A stretch of 64,000 nt of DNA from Haloferax marinisediminis (lineage in GTDB: Archaea > Halobacteriota > Halobacteria > Halobacteriales > Haloferacaceae), in the NCBI RefSeq assembly GCF_009674585.1, contig NZ_WKJP01000001.1, positions 1,178,001 to 1,242,000 on the forward strand, in the 5' to 3' direction. The position numbers were made by a program, and so were the translations under genes. The notes under the pieces were generated by a model. That model saw only the letters and a list, made by a program, of their open reading frames with translations. It did no database searches and was not told where the DNA came from. Every line of letters starts with the position of its first letter. The first letter of the stretch is position 1. Shown here piece by piece: positions 6,278-41,441 of the stretch.

Positions 6278-7954
6278 TTACTCTTCGCGGCGCTGTCGGA
6301 GGTTCTGCCTCGTGAACTGCGGCGTCGCCTTGATGCCCTTGCGCCCGCGGAACGACCGCCACAGGAGAATCACGACGAGCGCCGTGGGGACGCCTGCTGC
6401 GCCGACGGCGAGGAGGTTCTGTGGGTCCAGTGCGTAGATGATGACCGTCGAGACGAACCCGAACGAGAGGAAGATTCCGTAGATGAGTCGCTTCGCCAGT
6501 TTGTCGAGGACGCCTTTGTTGTCTTCGAGGCGGACGTTGACGGTCAGGTTTTCGCGGTCGGCCCTGTCGAGGACGCGTTCGAGTTTCGGCGGGACACGGA
6601 ACAGCGACTGCGCGGTTTTCTGGGCCTGTTGGCCGACGCCTTTCGCCACTTTCTCGATACTCTCTTCGCGGTAACCCTGTTCTGTAAGGTAGTCGGTCGC
6701 GACTGCGATGAAGTCGAAGTCTGGGTCGAGCGTGACACAGACGCCTTCGACGACACCCGCGACGCGCAAGACGAGCGCGAGGTTTCGCGGGAGTCTGAGC
6801 GGGAACTCGTAGATGGTCGACTCCACCTGTTCGAGAATCTGATTCACCCGGTACTGTTCGATGTCGTCACCGCGAGCGTCGGCGATGGCGAGTTCCATCA
6901 CGTCGCCCATCACCTGACGGTCGACGTTGGGGCTGAGCGTCCCCATCTCGATGAGCGTGTCGAGGATGCCGTCGACGTCCTGGTTGGCGACGGCGATGTA
7001 GAACTCCACAATCTTCTCTTGGATGAACGGGTCGACTTCGCCGTGCATCCCGAAGTCGTAGAAGATGATTCGCCCGTCGTCGGTCACAGACAGGTTCCCC
7101 GGGTGCGGGTCAGCGTGGAAGACGCCGTCTTGGACGATCATCTGCAGGTAGGTTCGCTGCAGGTTCGTCGCCAGTTCGGTCCGGTCGATACCGAGTTCGT
7201 CGAGTGCGGCGACGTTGTTTATCTTCGTCCCCGGGAGGTACTCCATCGTGAGTACACGGTCGTCAGAGCGCTCGTGGATGGGTTCCGGGATGACGAGGGT
7301 GTCGTCGTCCGCGAAGTTCTCCTGAATCTGCTCGAGCGTCGCTGCTTCTTCGTCGTAGTCCATCTCTTCGCGGATGGTCTTGGCGAACTCGTCGGCGAGG
7401 TTCTCCAGCGAGAAGGCGCGTCCCTGCCCGATGAACCGCATCAGGAGGGGAAGCGACCAGCGAATCACCCGAAGGTCGGCCTCGACGAGTTCTTCGATGC
7501 CGGGGCGACGAATCTTGACGGCGACTTTCTCGCCGTCGTACTCTGCCACGTACACCTGTCCGAGACTCGCGCCGCTTATCGGGTCGGTGTCGAACGAGTC
7601 GAACGCCTCGTCGACTGGGCCGAGCTCTGCTTCGAGGACGGCTTTCGACTCTTCCCACGGTGCGGGAGGCACGTCGTCCTGGAGACTGCCGAGGACGTCG
7701 ATGTACTCCGGTGGGAGGATGTCGGGCCGTGTCGACAGCAGTTGGCCGAGTTTGATGAACGTCGGTCCGAGCGTCAGTAGTGACTCGAGGAGGATTTCGG
7801 CGCGTTCGACACGCATCTCTGACGAGACGCGGCGACCGCGACCGAAGAACAGGTACTTCCGCTTGTCGCGGGTGTACGCGACGATGAGCGGGAAGAACTG
7901 GTAGACGACGATGAGGAACCGCCAGTAGGAGCGGAGATTGACCAGCGTGACCAC
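6278..7954 (-). CDS. AarF/UbiB/ABC1-family atypical kinase
   Basis: 558 residues. Typical family features: PTFIKLGQLLSTRPDILPPEY (KxGQ motif, about residues 63-83), SGASLGQVYVAEYDGEKVAVKI with the alanine-rich nucleotide loop and lysine, GVFHADPHPGNL, and FYDFGMHG. Two C-terminal transmembrane helices (LIYGIFLSFGFVSTVIIYAL, LLAVGAAGVPTALVVILLW) anchor it in the membrane. Relatives control isoprenoid-quinone or lipid metabolism as ATPases or kinases; the archaeal target is unknown. Starts with GTG 9 nt after the hsp20 stop, so it is probably the second gene of an hsp20-aarF operon. Confidence 0.92.
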   Translation of the reverse strand: MVTLVNLRSYWRFLIVVYQFFPLIVAYTRDKRKYLFFGRGRRVSSEMRVERAEILLESLLTLGPTFIKLGQLLSTRPDILPPEYIDVLGSLQDDVPPAPWEESKAVLEAELGPVDEAFDSFDTDPISGASLGQVYVAEYDGEKVAVKIRRPGIEELVEADLRVIRWSLPLLMRFIGQGRAFSLENLADEFAKTIREEMDYDEEAATLEQIQENFADDDTLVIPEPIHERSDDRVLTMEYLPGTKINNVAALDELGIDRTELATNLQRTYLQMIVQDGVFHADPHPGNLSVTDDGRIIFYDFGMHGEVDPFIQEKIVEFYIAVANQDVDGILDTLIEMGTLSPNVDRQVMGDVMELAIADARGDDIEQYRVNQILEQVESTIYEFPLRLPRNLALVLRVAGVVEGVCVTLDPDFDFIAVATDYLTEQGYREESIEKVAKGVGQQAQKTAQSLFRVPPKLERVLDRADRENLTVNVRLEDNKGVLDKLAKRLIYGIFLSFGFVSTVIIYALDPQNLLAVGAAGVPTALVVILLWRSFRGRKGIKATPQFTRQNLRQRREE

Positions 7955-7963
7955 CTCGCCTCG

Positions 7964-8419
7964 TCAGGCGTTGTCGCCGGAATTATTCTGGCGGCCTGAC
8001 GAGGTTTCCTCGTCATCGTCACCAGATTCTGTCTGGTGGGCAGACGAGCTCTGCTCGTCATCGTCGCCGGCGGTGATGGGAATGGTCCGCTTCGAGGTGG
8101 CCTCACGCTTGGGGAGGCGAACCTCGAGGACCCCGCGTTCCATCGATGCTTTGGCCTCGTCGGCGACTGCGTCCGGAGGCAGTGGGAGTTCGGCGTCGAG
8201 GAACAGTGGTCGCTCTTCGCGCACGTAATCGAACTCCGGCGAGAGTTGCTTGTCACGCCGCGCTTCGACGACCAATCGGCCTGTTTCGACTTTGAGGTCG
8301 GCAGTCTCGGCGGTCACGCCCGGGAGGTCGAGAACCAACAGGTACGACGTTTCGGACTCCAACAGGTCGGCGAACACCGCGTCCGGAAGTTCGGACAGCG
8401 CGTCGCGCAATGTTGACAT
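7964..8419 (-). CDS. Hsp20/alpha-crystallin small heat shock protein with repeat tail
   Basis: ATP-independent chaperone, 151 aa. The alpha-crystallin domain runs from about residue 25 to 112 (SYLLVLDLPGVTAETADLKVE, RGVLEVRLPKRE). The tail (about 118-148) is two 15-residue acidic/serine repeats, DDDEQSSSAHQTESG and DDDEETSSGRQNNSG, whose DNA forms four mini-hairpins (separate entry). Such a tail is not part of the normal Hsp20 fold. The ATG at 8419 is preferred over a TTG two codons upstream. First gene of a probable operon with the AarF kinase. Confidence 0.9.
   Translation of the reverse strand: MSTLRDALSELPDAVFADLLESETSYLLVLDLPGVTAETADLKVETGRLVVEARRDKQLSPEFDYVREERPLFLDAELPLPPDAVADEAKASMERGVLEVRLPKREATSKRTIPITAGDDDEQSSSAHQTESGDDDEETSSGRQNNSGDNA
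7976..8059 (-). repeat. Array of four mini-hairpins (two 45-nt in-frame repeats) in hsp20
   Basis: Four 17-nt inverted repeats, each a 7-bp stem with a 3-nt loop, lie at 7976-7992, 7998-8014, 8021-8037 and 8043-8059, separated by 5, 6 and 5 nt. Plus-strand examples: GACGAGG-TTT-CCTCGTC and GACGAGC-TCT-GCTCGTC; two of the four contain one G-T pair. Two hairpins plus spacers make 45 nt, exactly 15 codons, matching the 15-residue repeats of the protein tail. The same architecture occurs in the kinase gene at 38547-38608. Confidence 0.85.
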
Positions 8420-38245: not shown

Positions 38246-40024
38246 TCAGTTCTGTGTCGTCTCGGCAGCTACTGATTCGGACTCGGTTTCGACGTCTGTG
38301 AACTCGAATCGCGCCCCACCGGACGCCGCCGACGTGAGCGTGACCGACCACCCGTGCGCCTCGGCCACCGACTTGACGATGGGGAGCCCAAACCCAGTGC
38401 CGTCTTCGTGTGTCGTGTAGCCGCGTTCGAACACGTCCTCGCGCTTGGATTCTGGGACACCGGGGCCGTTGTCTTCGACGTAGAACCCATCGTCGAGTCG
38501 GCCGACGGTGACAGAGAGGGTGGCAGCAGGCTTCGACTGGTCGGTGGTCGAGCTATGCTCGACAGCCTCGCCGGACGAGGTCCGGCTGTCTGTGGAACTG
38601 TGTTCTACAGCATTCCGAAACAGGTTCTCGAACAGCTGTCTGAGTCGGCTTCGGTCGGCGGCGACCGTCTCGTCGGTCTGCACGTCGAGTGTCGAGTTCC
38701 CGACGGCGACGCTATCCCACGCCTCGTGTGCGACGGTGCGAATCGCGATTGGAGAGACGTCAGTGAGTGTCTCACCCTGCCGAGCGAGTGTGAGCAAGTC
38801 GTCGATAATCGTCTCCATTCGGTCGTGCGCGTCCTCGACGCGGTCGAAGTAGTCGTCGTCACCTGTCTCACGTGCCAACTCGTGGTAGCCTCGGGCGACC
38901 GTCAGCGGATTTCGAAGGTCGTGTGAGACGACCGAGGCGAACTCTTCGAGACGGTCGTTCTGGCGTTGGAGTCGGCGCTCACGCTCTTTTCGTTCGGTGA
39001 TGTCACGAACGAGGAGCAACGTCCCAGCAGTCGCCGTATCCGCTCCGAGCGTGGTCGTGTTCACCAGCAGGTCTCGTGGATTGCCGTCGAGCGACACTGT
39101 CGCCTCCGACTTCGACGGGTCGTCGAGAACCGCCATAATCGCCGACGGCAGGACCTGTTCAGCGGGACGGCCGTACGAATCGACGAGGGAACCTGTGAGA
39201 AGCGATTCACCTGACGGATTCGCGTCGAGGACTCTGTTCCCACCGTCGAGGACGATTGCGGACCCCTTCATCGACTCGACTGCAGACTCCCAGGCGATGG
39301 GGGTGAGTGTGAACAACCGGTGGCGGAAGACACTCCACGCGACGGCAGTCGACGTGAGCGAGAACGCCAGTGCGGGCAGGTTCAACCCCGGAACTGGACT
39401 CGCGTCCGCGACGTAGATGATGCCGCCAACTGCCGGGACGAGTCCACCGACGAGGAGGCCGAGCGTCTGTTTTCGGTAGATTCCGTCCGCGTGGAGAAGC
39501 GTCCGTAAGAGAACCCCGACACCGACGAAGATGAGGACGTAGGCGTAGACGATGAACCCGGTGAACGCGATGCTGTGGTCGTTGACGAGGATGACGTAGC
39601 CGCTCTGTTCTGAGAGCCAGAGGTCGTCCCAGATGAGTCCGTGCCACTGGTTCGTCAGCGCGAGACCGGCGACGAGTGCCGAGATACTTCCGAGGCCGGC
39701 CCACACCGCTCGGGGCAGGTCGTCGAAGCCAGCGTGGCGCATCACGTACGCGAGCCACAAGAGCGGGAGTGGCGCGATTCCGAGGTAGCCGAGTTGGTTC
39801 AACAAGACCTTGGCCGCGAAATCGGTCCGGGAGAGTTCGAGGGCGTACATCCCCATCCAGAACCCAGATACGAACAGCAACAGCGCACCGAGTGTCGCAC
39901 CGGGGACGAGACGGCGTTTGGTACGGCGCCGGAGCAAGTAGACTCCGAGAACCACGAACAGGCCCGCACCGACCCCGAGCGGGATTGTGTAGGGTGTCGA
40001 CTGCCAGTGGGTCGCGCCGTGCAT
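38246..40024 (-). CDS. Sensor histidine kinase with seven-helix N-terminal domain and PAS
   Basis: 592 residues. Seven hydrophobic segments fill residues about 10-225 (HisKA_7TM type), then a PAS domain (SAIVLDGGNRVLDANPSGESLLTG), HisKA with FASVVSHDLRNPLTVARGY, and HATPase with FENLFRNAVEHSST, VEDNGPGVPESKR and GTGFGLPIVKSVAEAHGW. Directly after the N-box the protein carries a 15-residue insertion that repeats the N-box motif (AVEHSSTDSRTSSGE then AVEHSST), matching the mini-hairpin repeat described separately. No response regulator is adjacent. ATG at 40024 chosen before MHGATHWQSTPYTIPLG. Confidence 0.92.
   Translation of the reverse strand: MHGATHWQSTPYTIPLGVGAGLFVVLGVYLLRRRTKRRLVPGATLGALLLFVSGFWMGMYALELSRTDFAAKVLLNQLGYLGIAPLPLLWLAYVMRHAGFDDLPRAVWAGLGSISALVAGLALTNQWHGLIWDDLWLSEQSGYVILVNDHSIAFTGFIVYAYVLIFVGVGVLLRTLLHADGIYRKQTLGLLVGGLVPAVGGIIYVADASPVPGLNLPALAFSLTSTAVAWSVFRHRLFTLTPIAWESAVESMKGSAIVLDGGNRVLDANPSGESLLTGSLVDSYGRPAEQVLPSAIMAVLDDPSKSEATVSLDGNPRDLLVNTTTLGADTATAGTLLLVRDITERKERERRLQRQNDRLEEFASVVSHDLRNPLTVARGYHELARETGDDDYFDRVEDAHDRMETIIDDLLTLARQGETLTDVSPIAIRTVAHEAWDSVAVGNSTLDVQTDETVAADRSRLRQLFENLFRNAVEHSSTDSRTSSGEAVEHSSTTDQSKPAATLSVTVGRLDDGFYVEDNGPGVPESKREDVFERGYTTHEDGTGFGLPIVKSVAEAHGWSVTLTSAASGGARFEFTDVETESESVAAETTQN
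38547..38608 (-). repeat. Three mini-hairpins in the histidine kinase N-box region
   Basis: 17-nt inverted repeats at 38547-38563 (GTCGAGC-TAT-GCTCGAC), 38570-38586 (GCCGGAC-GAG-GTCCGGC) and 38592-38608 (GTGGAAC-TGT-GTTCTAC, one G-T pair), spaced by 6 and 5 nt. Start-to-start distance between first and third is 45 nt, or 15 codons, and the protein repeats AVEHSST at that spacing. Same architecture as 7976-8059. Confidence 0.85.
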
Positions 40025-40121
40025 GAGGGGGAGTGAGTAGACAGGGGTTAAAACTCCAACTCTCGCCACCGGAGACCGACCAATCAGAAAGGACTTTCCG
40101 GCACCCATCGAACTCCCGTCT

Positions 40122-41441
40122 ATGATTGGCATCGTCGGCGGCGGCATCGCGGGCCTCGCCGCGGCGCATCGACTCCGGAAACGGGGTCACGACGTTCGCA
40201 TCTTCGAGGCGTCCGACTCACTCGGCGGCCTCGCGGCCACCTACGAGACGAAAGGTGACGATATCGAACGGTACTACCACCACCTCTCGAAATCTGAAGA
40301 GACCATCGTCGAACTCGCCGAGGAACTCGGCCTCGGCGACGAGTTAGAGTGGCACATCGGCAAGAACGCCTACTACGTCGACGGCGTCGTCCACCCACTG
40401 GACACGGCGTGGCAAATCGCCGCGTACCCACACATGAGCCTCTACGACAAGTTCCGTCTCGGCATGCTCACCCTCGGAATCGACGTTCGCGGCGGCTTCC
40501 CCGACTTCGACGCCTACGAGGAACTCGCGGAGTACGAACACACTCCCATCCGCGACTTCGTGGTCGAGCACACCACACAGGGCGTCTACGACAACTTCGT
40601 CGAACCCCTGTTGGATGGTAAATTCGGCGAGCGCAAAGACGACGTGTCGGCAGCGTGGTTCCTCGGGCGCGTCCGCTTCCGCGGTGAGCGTGACCTCCTT
40701 CGCGGCGAGCTCCTCGGCTACTTCGACGGTGGCTTCGCACCGCTCATCGACGCGCTCGTCGATGCGGTCGGCCGCGAGAACATCCAGACTGGCGCTCGGG
40801 TCACAGAACTCGACACCGGCGGCGAGGGCGGGGACGTCGAGACGATTACCGTCGAGACAGACGACGGCACAGAGACCCACGAGGTCGATTCGGTCGTCGT
40901 CGCCACGATGCCGAACGTCCTCGAAGACCTCACTGGCTACCAGTGCGACATCGACTTCCAGGGCGCAGTGTGTGGACTGGCGACGATGTCCGAGTCGCTG
41001 ATGGACACCTACTGGCTCAACATCGCCCACGACGCACCCTTCGGGTCGCTCATCGAACACACGAACTTCGTCCCGCCGGAGCAGTACGGCGGCGACCACT
41101 TGCTCTACGTCGCGAGTTACGTTCAGGGACCGCACGAAGACCTCTGGCAAATGAGCGATGAGGAGGTCGAGGACGTCTGGTTCGACGAAATCGAGGACAT
41201 GTTCCCCGACTTCGACCGCTCGGCCGTCGAGGAGTTCAAAATCGCCCGCAACCCGCGTGCCGGACCAGTGTACGAACGTGGCTACCTCGACCTCGTCGTC
41301 CCCTACGACCTCGCAGACGACGTTGCAGAGGGCGTCTACTACGCCGGGATGGCCTCCGAAGCGCAGTACCCCGAGCGCTCGCTCAACGGCGGTATCGTCG
41401 CAGGCTACGAAGTCGCCGACCGCATCGACGAGCGACTGTAA
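40122..41441 (+). CDS. FAD-dependent amine oxidase/protoporphyrinogen oxidase-like protein
   Basis: 439 residues. FAD-binding motif IGIVGGGIAGLAAAHRLRKRGHDV with SDSLGGLAAT at the N-terminus, and the C-terminal VYYAGMASEAQYPERSLNGGIVAGYEVAD closing the FAD site. The middle (HMSLYDKFRLGMLTLG, FVEPLLDGKFGERKDDVSAAWFLGR) resembles UDP-galactopyranose-mutase- and desaturase-like flavoproteins. The substrate is not clear. It is divergent from the histidine kinase. Confidence 0.87.
   Translation: MIGIVGGGIAGLAAAHRLRKRGHDVRIFEASDSLGGLAATYETKGDDIERYYHHLSKSEETIVELAEELGLGDELEWHIGKNAYYVDGVVHPLDTAWQIAAYPHMSLYDKFRLGMLTLGIDVRGGFPDFDAYEELAEYEHTPIRDFVVEHTTQGVYDNFVEPLLDGKFGERKDDVSAAWFLGRVRFRGERDLLRGELLGYFDGGFAPLIDALVDAVGRENIQTGARVTELDTGGEGGDVETITVETDDGTETHEVDSVVVATMPNVLEDLTGYQCDIDFQGAVCGLATMSESLMDTYWLNIAHDAPFGSLIEHTNFVPPEQYGGDHLLYVASYVQGPHEDLWQMSDEEVEDVWFDEIEDMFPDFDRSAVEEFKIARNPRAGPVYERGYLDLVVPYDLADDVAEGVYYAGMASEAQYPERSLNGGIVAGYEVADRIDERL

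Follow-up and report, generated by a model that had tools for sequence, protein, structure and literature searches.

Paired mini-hairpins in a haloarchaeal hsp20 gene are probably tandem copies of a very short mobile DNA element

The C-terminal tail of an hsp20 gene of Haloferax marinisediminis contains four small hairpins that share one geometry and differ in sequence, raising the question of what keeps the structure while the sequence changes. An earlier note on this DNA had regarded the hairpins as a feature of hsp20 and proposed selection for folding of DNA or RNA. Comparison of the sequences across a 64-kb window (the whole 64,000-nt stretch that was analysed), the genome and the class Halobacteria indicates that the hsp20 hairpins are very probably a haloarchaeal mobile DNA element, very short and non-autonomous, that is present here in two tandem copies. 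The assignment to hsp20 was incomplete, because the element is dispersed and has dozens of unrelated genes as hosts. The hsp20 gene is one of these, and its tail contains zero, one, or two units depending on the species; copy-number differences were among the checks that the note had proposed.

The features of the window are listed in Table 1. On the forward strand of the hsp20 tail, which is the site of two element copies, the four 17-nt hairpins are separated by spacers of 5, 6, and 5 nt, with start-to-start distances of 22, 23, and 22 nt and a period of 45 nt. The 7-bp stems and 3-nt loops described earlier are present, although the stems at 7976-7992 and at 8021-8037 are complete only if a single G-T pair (A-C on the coding strand) is allowed in each; under strict Watson-Crick pairing, 8020-8038 forms a 7-bp stem with a 5-nt loop. 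The 45-nt direct repeats (7973-8017 and 8018-8062) are 73% identical and encode the peptides DDDEQSSSAHQTESG and DDDEETSSGRQNNSG, in agreement with the claimed 15-codon period and two 15-residue repeats. The coding strand (window 8065-7964) reads GACGAT-[GACGAGCAGAGCTCGTC]-TGCCC-[ACCAGACAGAATCTGGT]-GACGAT-[GACGAGGAAACCTCGTC]-AGGCC-[GCCAGAATAATTCCGGC]-GACAAC-GCC-TGA.

Table 1. Positions of the host genes, element copies, hairpins, and flank in the window
Feature	Position	Strand	Details
hsp20 gene, small heat-shock protein	7964..8419	-	ATG 8419, TGA 7966-7964; Pfam HSP20 PF00011, E = 9.1e-13
Element copy 1 in hsp20	8015..8059	-	45 nt: H1, 5-nt spacer, H2, 6-nt spacer; peptide DEQSSSAHQTESGDD; model match 57.3 bits, E = 8.4e-11
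Element copy 2 in hsp20	7970..8014	-	45 nt; peptide DEETSSGRQNNSGDN, then GCC TGA; model match 58.5 bits, E = 4.3e-11
Hairpin H1, hsp20 copy 1	8043..8059	-	GACGAGC AGA GCTCGTC
Hairpin H2, hsp20 copy 1	8021..8037	-	ACCAGAC AGA ATCTGGT; includes a C-A pair (T-G on the opposite strand)
Hairpin H1, hsp20 copy 2	7998..8014	-	GACGAGG AAA CCTCGTC
Hairpin H2, hsp20 copy 2	7976..7992	-	GCCAGAA TAA TTCCGGC; includes an A-C pair (G-T on the opposite strand)
Left flank hexamer GACGAT at hsp20	8060..8065	-	GACRNY-like; such flanks recur on either side of copies
Histidine kinase gene, second host	38246..40147	-	Pfam HisKA_7TM, HisKA, HATPase_c
Element copy in kinase HATPase N-box	38564..38608	-	GTAGAACACAGTTCCAC 5 GCCGGACCTCGTCCGGC 6; peptide VEHSSTDSRTSSGEA; 53.8 bits, E = 6.5e-10
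Second kinase element copy, partly decayed	38519..38563	-	GTCGAGCATAGCTCGAC 5 ACCAGTCGAAGCCTGCT 6; 48.7 bits, E = 1.2e-8

Compared with dinucleotide shuffles, the tail folded more stably both as DNA (z = -8.85) and as coding-strand RNA (z = -5.70). Under a codon-preserving null, the folding energy of the tail was not significant (z = -1.4, P = 0.09), and minimum free energy, much of which the codon null accounts for, was therefore not relied on by itself. In most hsp20 orthologues, a palindrome, CGCCTGACGAGGCG (window 7953-7966; loci L005-L018), lies across the stop codon, just upstream of the GTG codon at which the next ORF, an ABC1-type kinase, begins; it possibly mediates translational coupling. 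An alternative hairpin of the tail controlling the GTG start of the next gene was considered and set aside, since the tail copies are missing in several species.

In the scan of the window, the 5/6/5 hairpin geometry recurred at 38525-38608, in the ATPase domain of an unrelated histidine kinase, and the kinase repeat could be aligned with the hsp20 repeat of copy 1. Good-hairpin pairs with start-to-start distances of 22, 23, and 45 nt stood out in the window (3, 2, and 3 pairs, respectively) and mapped to the hsp20 locus and to this kinase segment. Many element copies adjoin the N-box of histidine kinases. In the histidine kinases at loci L094 and L097, up to five tandem 45-nt units were seen in the ATPase domain; the length of the kinase differs between species in 15-residue steps because the number of tandem units differs. 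The A-N-A first loop reported earlier is present in hsp20 and the window kinase without being a general rule; among 105 distinct copies, GAA, ACG, AAA, and GGA are the most frequent first loops.

The element unit of 45 nt consists of a 39-nt core, in which two 17-nt palindromes (H1 and H2; 7-bp stem, 3-nt loop) lie 5 nt apart, and a 6-nt GACRNY flank. A pattern search of the same genome added another kinase and a CGHC-motif protein to the hosts, and a 45-nt covariance model (R1), built from 13 copies, gave 13 matches in this genome at E <= 4e-6; E-values of the model reach 3e-12. Copies were observed in all 15 genomes of the genus survey, and the search of haloarchaea that had been suggested returned matches in 235 of 292 genomes and 66 of 77 genera of the Halobacteria sample. 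In a phylum sample of 247 genomes, the 32 genomes with matches all belonged to Halobacteria, and none lay outside the class. The exact pattern, searched over 84,980 bacterial and archaeal species, matched 19 stretches, in Halobacteria only (Halolamina, Halorubrum, Haladaptatus, Haloterrigena, Halobaculum, Natronobiforma, a Halococcaceae MAG, and unclassified Halobacteriales MAGs).

Among the searched genomes, the highest number of matches was 85 (genome G245, E <= 0.001). Copies inside one genome are seldom identical (24 of 25 distinct), a scarcity that is unlike a recently active single-master transposon. Two strict pattern scans of viral contigs gave no match, and an Rfam search over nine sources returned tRNA and sR-tMet only, so that the element matches no known structured RNA family. 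In G245, two probably non-coding, intergenic copies (L214 and L215) lie within a duplicated stretch of about 600 nt with 88.5% identity, which may be a larger repeat that carries the element.

Occupied and empty sites were observed among orthologues of the same genus. The alignments contained 2 occupied and 7 empty sites for CofG, 1 and 3 for the M20 peptidase, 2 and 4 for EndA, and 4 and 9 for LigA, with a difference of exactly 45 nt in each case and good similarity between occupied and empty sequences on either side of the site. For PurC, the difference was 51 nt because of 6 additional bases in one loop. As judged from these alignments, insertion rather than divergence explains the 45-nt length differences. 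The PurC site THYRGV/VE bears the element in three genera (L130:922-1989, L126:697-1758, and L227:694-1758), either as a hot spot or through old inheritance; in the L130 copy, the second loop is the one that is longer by 6 bases. In the CofG genes of two related species (L166 and L167), copies at the same site differ at several stem pairs and are both perfect, which suggests independent insertion or replacement. More generally, same-site copies across lineages (PurC, LigA, and CofG) may have been inherited or transferred rather than independently inserted.

The flanks of 88 single, non-kinase copies show a clear preference. The hexamer 5' of H1 reads G(0.94) A(0.75) C(0.91) R(0.98) N Y(0.91); that 3' of H2 is GACGNC-like. 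Flank identity at the degenerate position is 0.47 within a locus versus 0.25 between loci (z = 4.6). This pattern is consistent with a duplicated 6-bp target; the direct repeats are imperfect, however, and could reflect plain target preference instead of duplication, which is a caveat to mobility.

The hosts identified by reading of the sequences are LigA (DNA ligase), EndA (tRNA-splicing endonuclease), CofG, PurC, an Orc1/Cdc6-like protein, and the M20 peptidase. Those identified by Pfam or NCBIfam are PurA, a class I tRNA synthetase, PurF, MetX, an aconitase-family protein, Lhr-like and Dna2-like helicases, an ABC transporter, a CopA-type copper P-ATPase, a sulfite/nitrite reductase, a pyridine nucleotide-disulphide oxidoreductase, and a carboxyl transferase. 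A same-frame ORF of at least 150 residues surrounds the unit in 102 of 111 loci. The other nine, without a frame +0 ORF of 150 residues, include an antisense, in-frame copy within a MenC-like gene (L244), whose peptide differs from the sense one, and copies that are probably intergenic. Another copy, in a small YccF-like membrane protein (L231), also looks antisense, as read from the sequence; neither family library recognised this protein.

All six frames of the element consensus are open. Of the GACRNY words in the window genes, 40% fall in sense frame 0 and 31% in antisense phase 0, so that target preference accounts for part of the frame bias. The remaining bias is probably due to selection, because the antisense peptide, DVAGLRPAARRALLV, is hydrophobic; the sense peptide has 15 residues and is hydrophilic and acidic/serine-rich. 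In the host protein, the insert probably forms a tolerated surface loop or tail. A search of solved structures found no chain resembling the element peptide and no match for PurC at the threshold, and the AlphaFold model of PurC (mean pLDDT of 53) was too poor to place the insert.

The stems covary strongly. Over 105 distinct copies, 98.2% of the stem cells were Watson-Crick, a percentage inflated by the fact that this set was mostly gathered with a structure-aware model, and the perfect arms comprised 23 different sequences for the first stem and 17 for the second. In a smaller alignment made before the model (A2), both-sided changes occurred at 10 of 14 pairs, in 31 cells compared to 11.4 in shuffles. 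The proposed covariation test gave a paired fraction of 0.98 for columns 2-16, versus 0.37 expected from the marginals. Mutual information was 1.07-1.37 bits for partner columns and 0.00-0.08 bits for the tested non-partner columns; the latter are almost uncoupled, indicating that subfamily structure or shared ancestry is not the cause of the coupling. The arms of H1 and H2 vary independently of one another. The earlier note was thus correct that the structure rather than the sequence is conserved, and that stem changes compensate each other.

Whether these stems are kept for a role in the host message, in stability, processing, or translation coupling, with selection acting gene by gene, was considered in light of these data. 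The coding strand of the hsp20 tail outfolds shuffles, and the tail directly precedes the next gene of a likely operon (the ABC1-type kinase ORF, GTG 7954). In contrast, the unit is present in dozens of unrelated genes, and several species have none. RNA tolerates G-U pairs, whereas the 1554 stem cells contain 8 G-T and 12 A-C; the lack of a G-T excess over A-C points to a DNA palindrome rather than an RNA fold. Furthermore, same-site copies in related species carry uncompensated mismatches (79% Watson-Crick in hsp20 and 84% in LigA), and resident copies therefore seem free to decay. The stem constraint seems to act on spreading copies or when copies form, not for the host gene; a regulatory RNA is therefore a less likely reading than a mobile DNA element, and the mRNA explanation is improbable. 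Of the proposed selection for folding of DNA or RNA, the evidence favours the DNA part, as a constraint in spread or formation, over an RNA role in the host message.

An origin in the protein, by duplication and shuffling of a hydrophilic serine/acidic 15-residue linker whose palindromes arise from codon bias (GAC/GAG versus TCG/TCx), would agree with the use of frame +0 by most copies, and codon bias alone does yield some hairpins (mean of 0.34 7-bp hairpins in the hsp20 tail). However, none of 2000 synonymous-codon randomisations reached the three perfect 7-bp hairpins observed there, and pairing is kept at codon positions 1, 2, and 3. Residues 1 and 6 are coupled (D-S, V-T, A-A, and E-S) because stem pairing demands it, with no reason in the protein. 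Together with the different peptide of the antisense copy in the MenC-like gene, this non-synonymous compensation refutes a protein module as the full account, and we consider it very improbable. Chance or low complexity is less credible still: haloarchaeal DNA abounds in GACGAG/CTCGTC-like words and the window has about one 7-bp hairpin per 1.3 kb, but the exact geometry common to unrelated genes, the model E-values, and the class-wide distribution refute it. Arm-templated repair (quasi-palindrome correction), which accepts mobility and would keep stems perfect by mutation rather than by selection for folding, is a serious alternative for stem perfection, although on balance an unlikely one. 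Stem pairs vary independently with mismatched intermediates nearly absent, and the transversion pairs common at columns 2-16 (A-T, T-A, and C-G) are hard to reach via stepwise selection; on the other hand, the old LigA and hsp20 orthologous copies remain imperfect, indicating that correction is inefficient in resident copies and still possible during copying.

For the mobile element favoured here, the following course of events is proposed. The palindromes would fold as DNA hairpins, and an enzyme supplied in trans would recognise them at copying or insertion. Insertion would occur at GACRNY sites with duplication of the hexamer, each event adding 39 + 6 = 45 nt and hence keeping the reading frame. 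The dominance of frame +0 would arise because target sites are mostly in codon phase and because the hydrophilic, acidic/serine-rich peptide is presumably harmless and suited to high-salt proteins. Tandem arrays would expand or contract through recombination or slippage between the 45-nt repeats, as in the hsp20 tail. More tentatively, and with somewhat more doubt than confidence, the element may be still active throughout Halobacteria, a twin DNA mini-hairpin that a putative enzyme moves into GACRNY sites; essential proteins would thereby gain a hydrophilic peptide of 15 residues, and the stems would be re-made or corrected in each round so that the arms of every copy differ yet pair perfectly.

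In agreement with the earlier note, no description of a 45-nt twin-hairpin element was found in the open-access literature; most subscription papers were outside this scope, and a prior report is possible. By analogy, the element appears to work like the in-frame palindromic elements known from Rickettsia, Wolbachia, and Methanocaldococcus jannaschii (PMC2229807, PMC2996958), and differs in size, twin-hairpin build, flank, tandem behaviour, and host range. The Rickettsia palindromic elements (RPEs) and their Wolbachia counterparts are likewise short palindromic DNA in frame within conserved protein genes, have no transposase of their own, and, for RPEs, also occur outside genes; in-frame insertion with empty sites in relatives was likewise found here (CofG, M20, EndA, LigA, and PurC). 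RPEs are reported to be 105-146 bp long and to have a single long stem-loop, with terminal inverted repeats of 12 bp (PMC2229807), whereas the haloarchaeal element has 45 nt, two 17-nt mini-hairpins with separate 7-bp stems, GACRNY flanks, and frequent 45-nt arrays. The coding palindromic repeats of M. jannaschii (Suyama et al. 2005, as relayed in PMC2229807 and PMC2996958) are also archaeal and fused in frame; the comparison is by description, and Methanocaldococcus belongs to another phylum than Halobacteria, outside the model search.

PARCEL repeats resemble the element as genome-dispersed coding tandem repeats with dyad symmetry, but have 25 residues (75 nt), are amphipathic, occur in membrane-targeted proteins, and are reported absent from Archaea (PMC2996958); the present repeat has 15 residues and is hydrophilic. 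The PATEs, MITEs, and small mobile repeats of Haloquadratum (PMC3119063) are, like the element, transposase-free mobile repeats of haloarchaea. In the part of PMC3119063 drawn on here, PATEs have near-terminal palindromes, are related to IS605-type transposons, and lack target duplication, and in-frame coding insertions are not described. A simple IS605-type mechanism, which, according to the same part, duplicates no target, fits less well with the direct-repeat-like GACRNY flanks. MITEs have terminal inverted repeats that match those of a transposon; in the present element, H1 and H2 are two distinct palindromes with independent arms. REP elements of the GTAG/CGTC families are also high-copy palindromes, of 20-40 bp, some of them in genes, but they are single palindromes that carry a GTAG or CGTC tag and lie mainly outside genes, and the text describing them does not mention haloarchaea (PMC3733652); the present copies are mostly genic, and no tag is invariant among them, column 16 being T, A, or G.

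The element would rank among the smallest mobile DNA elements described. In our survey, it extends through the larger part of an archaeal class, some genomes having tens of copies, and its host enzymes serve replication, repair, translation, and purine synthesis. Since haloarchaeal genetics is available, it offers a tractable case of selfish DNA that enters coding sequence without breaking it and adds peptide loops. The covariation poses the question of how dispersed copies stay perfectly stemmed while every pair varies, and in haloarchaeal alignments, 15-residue insertions or repeats should be taken as mobile-element scars.
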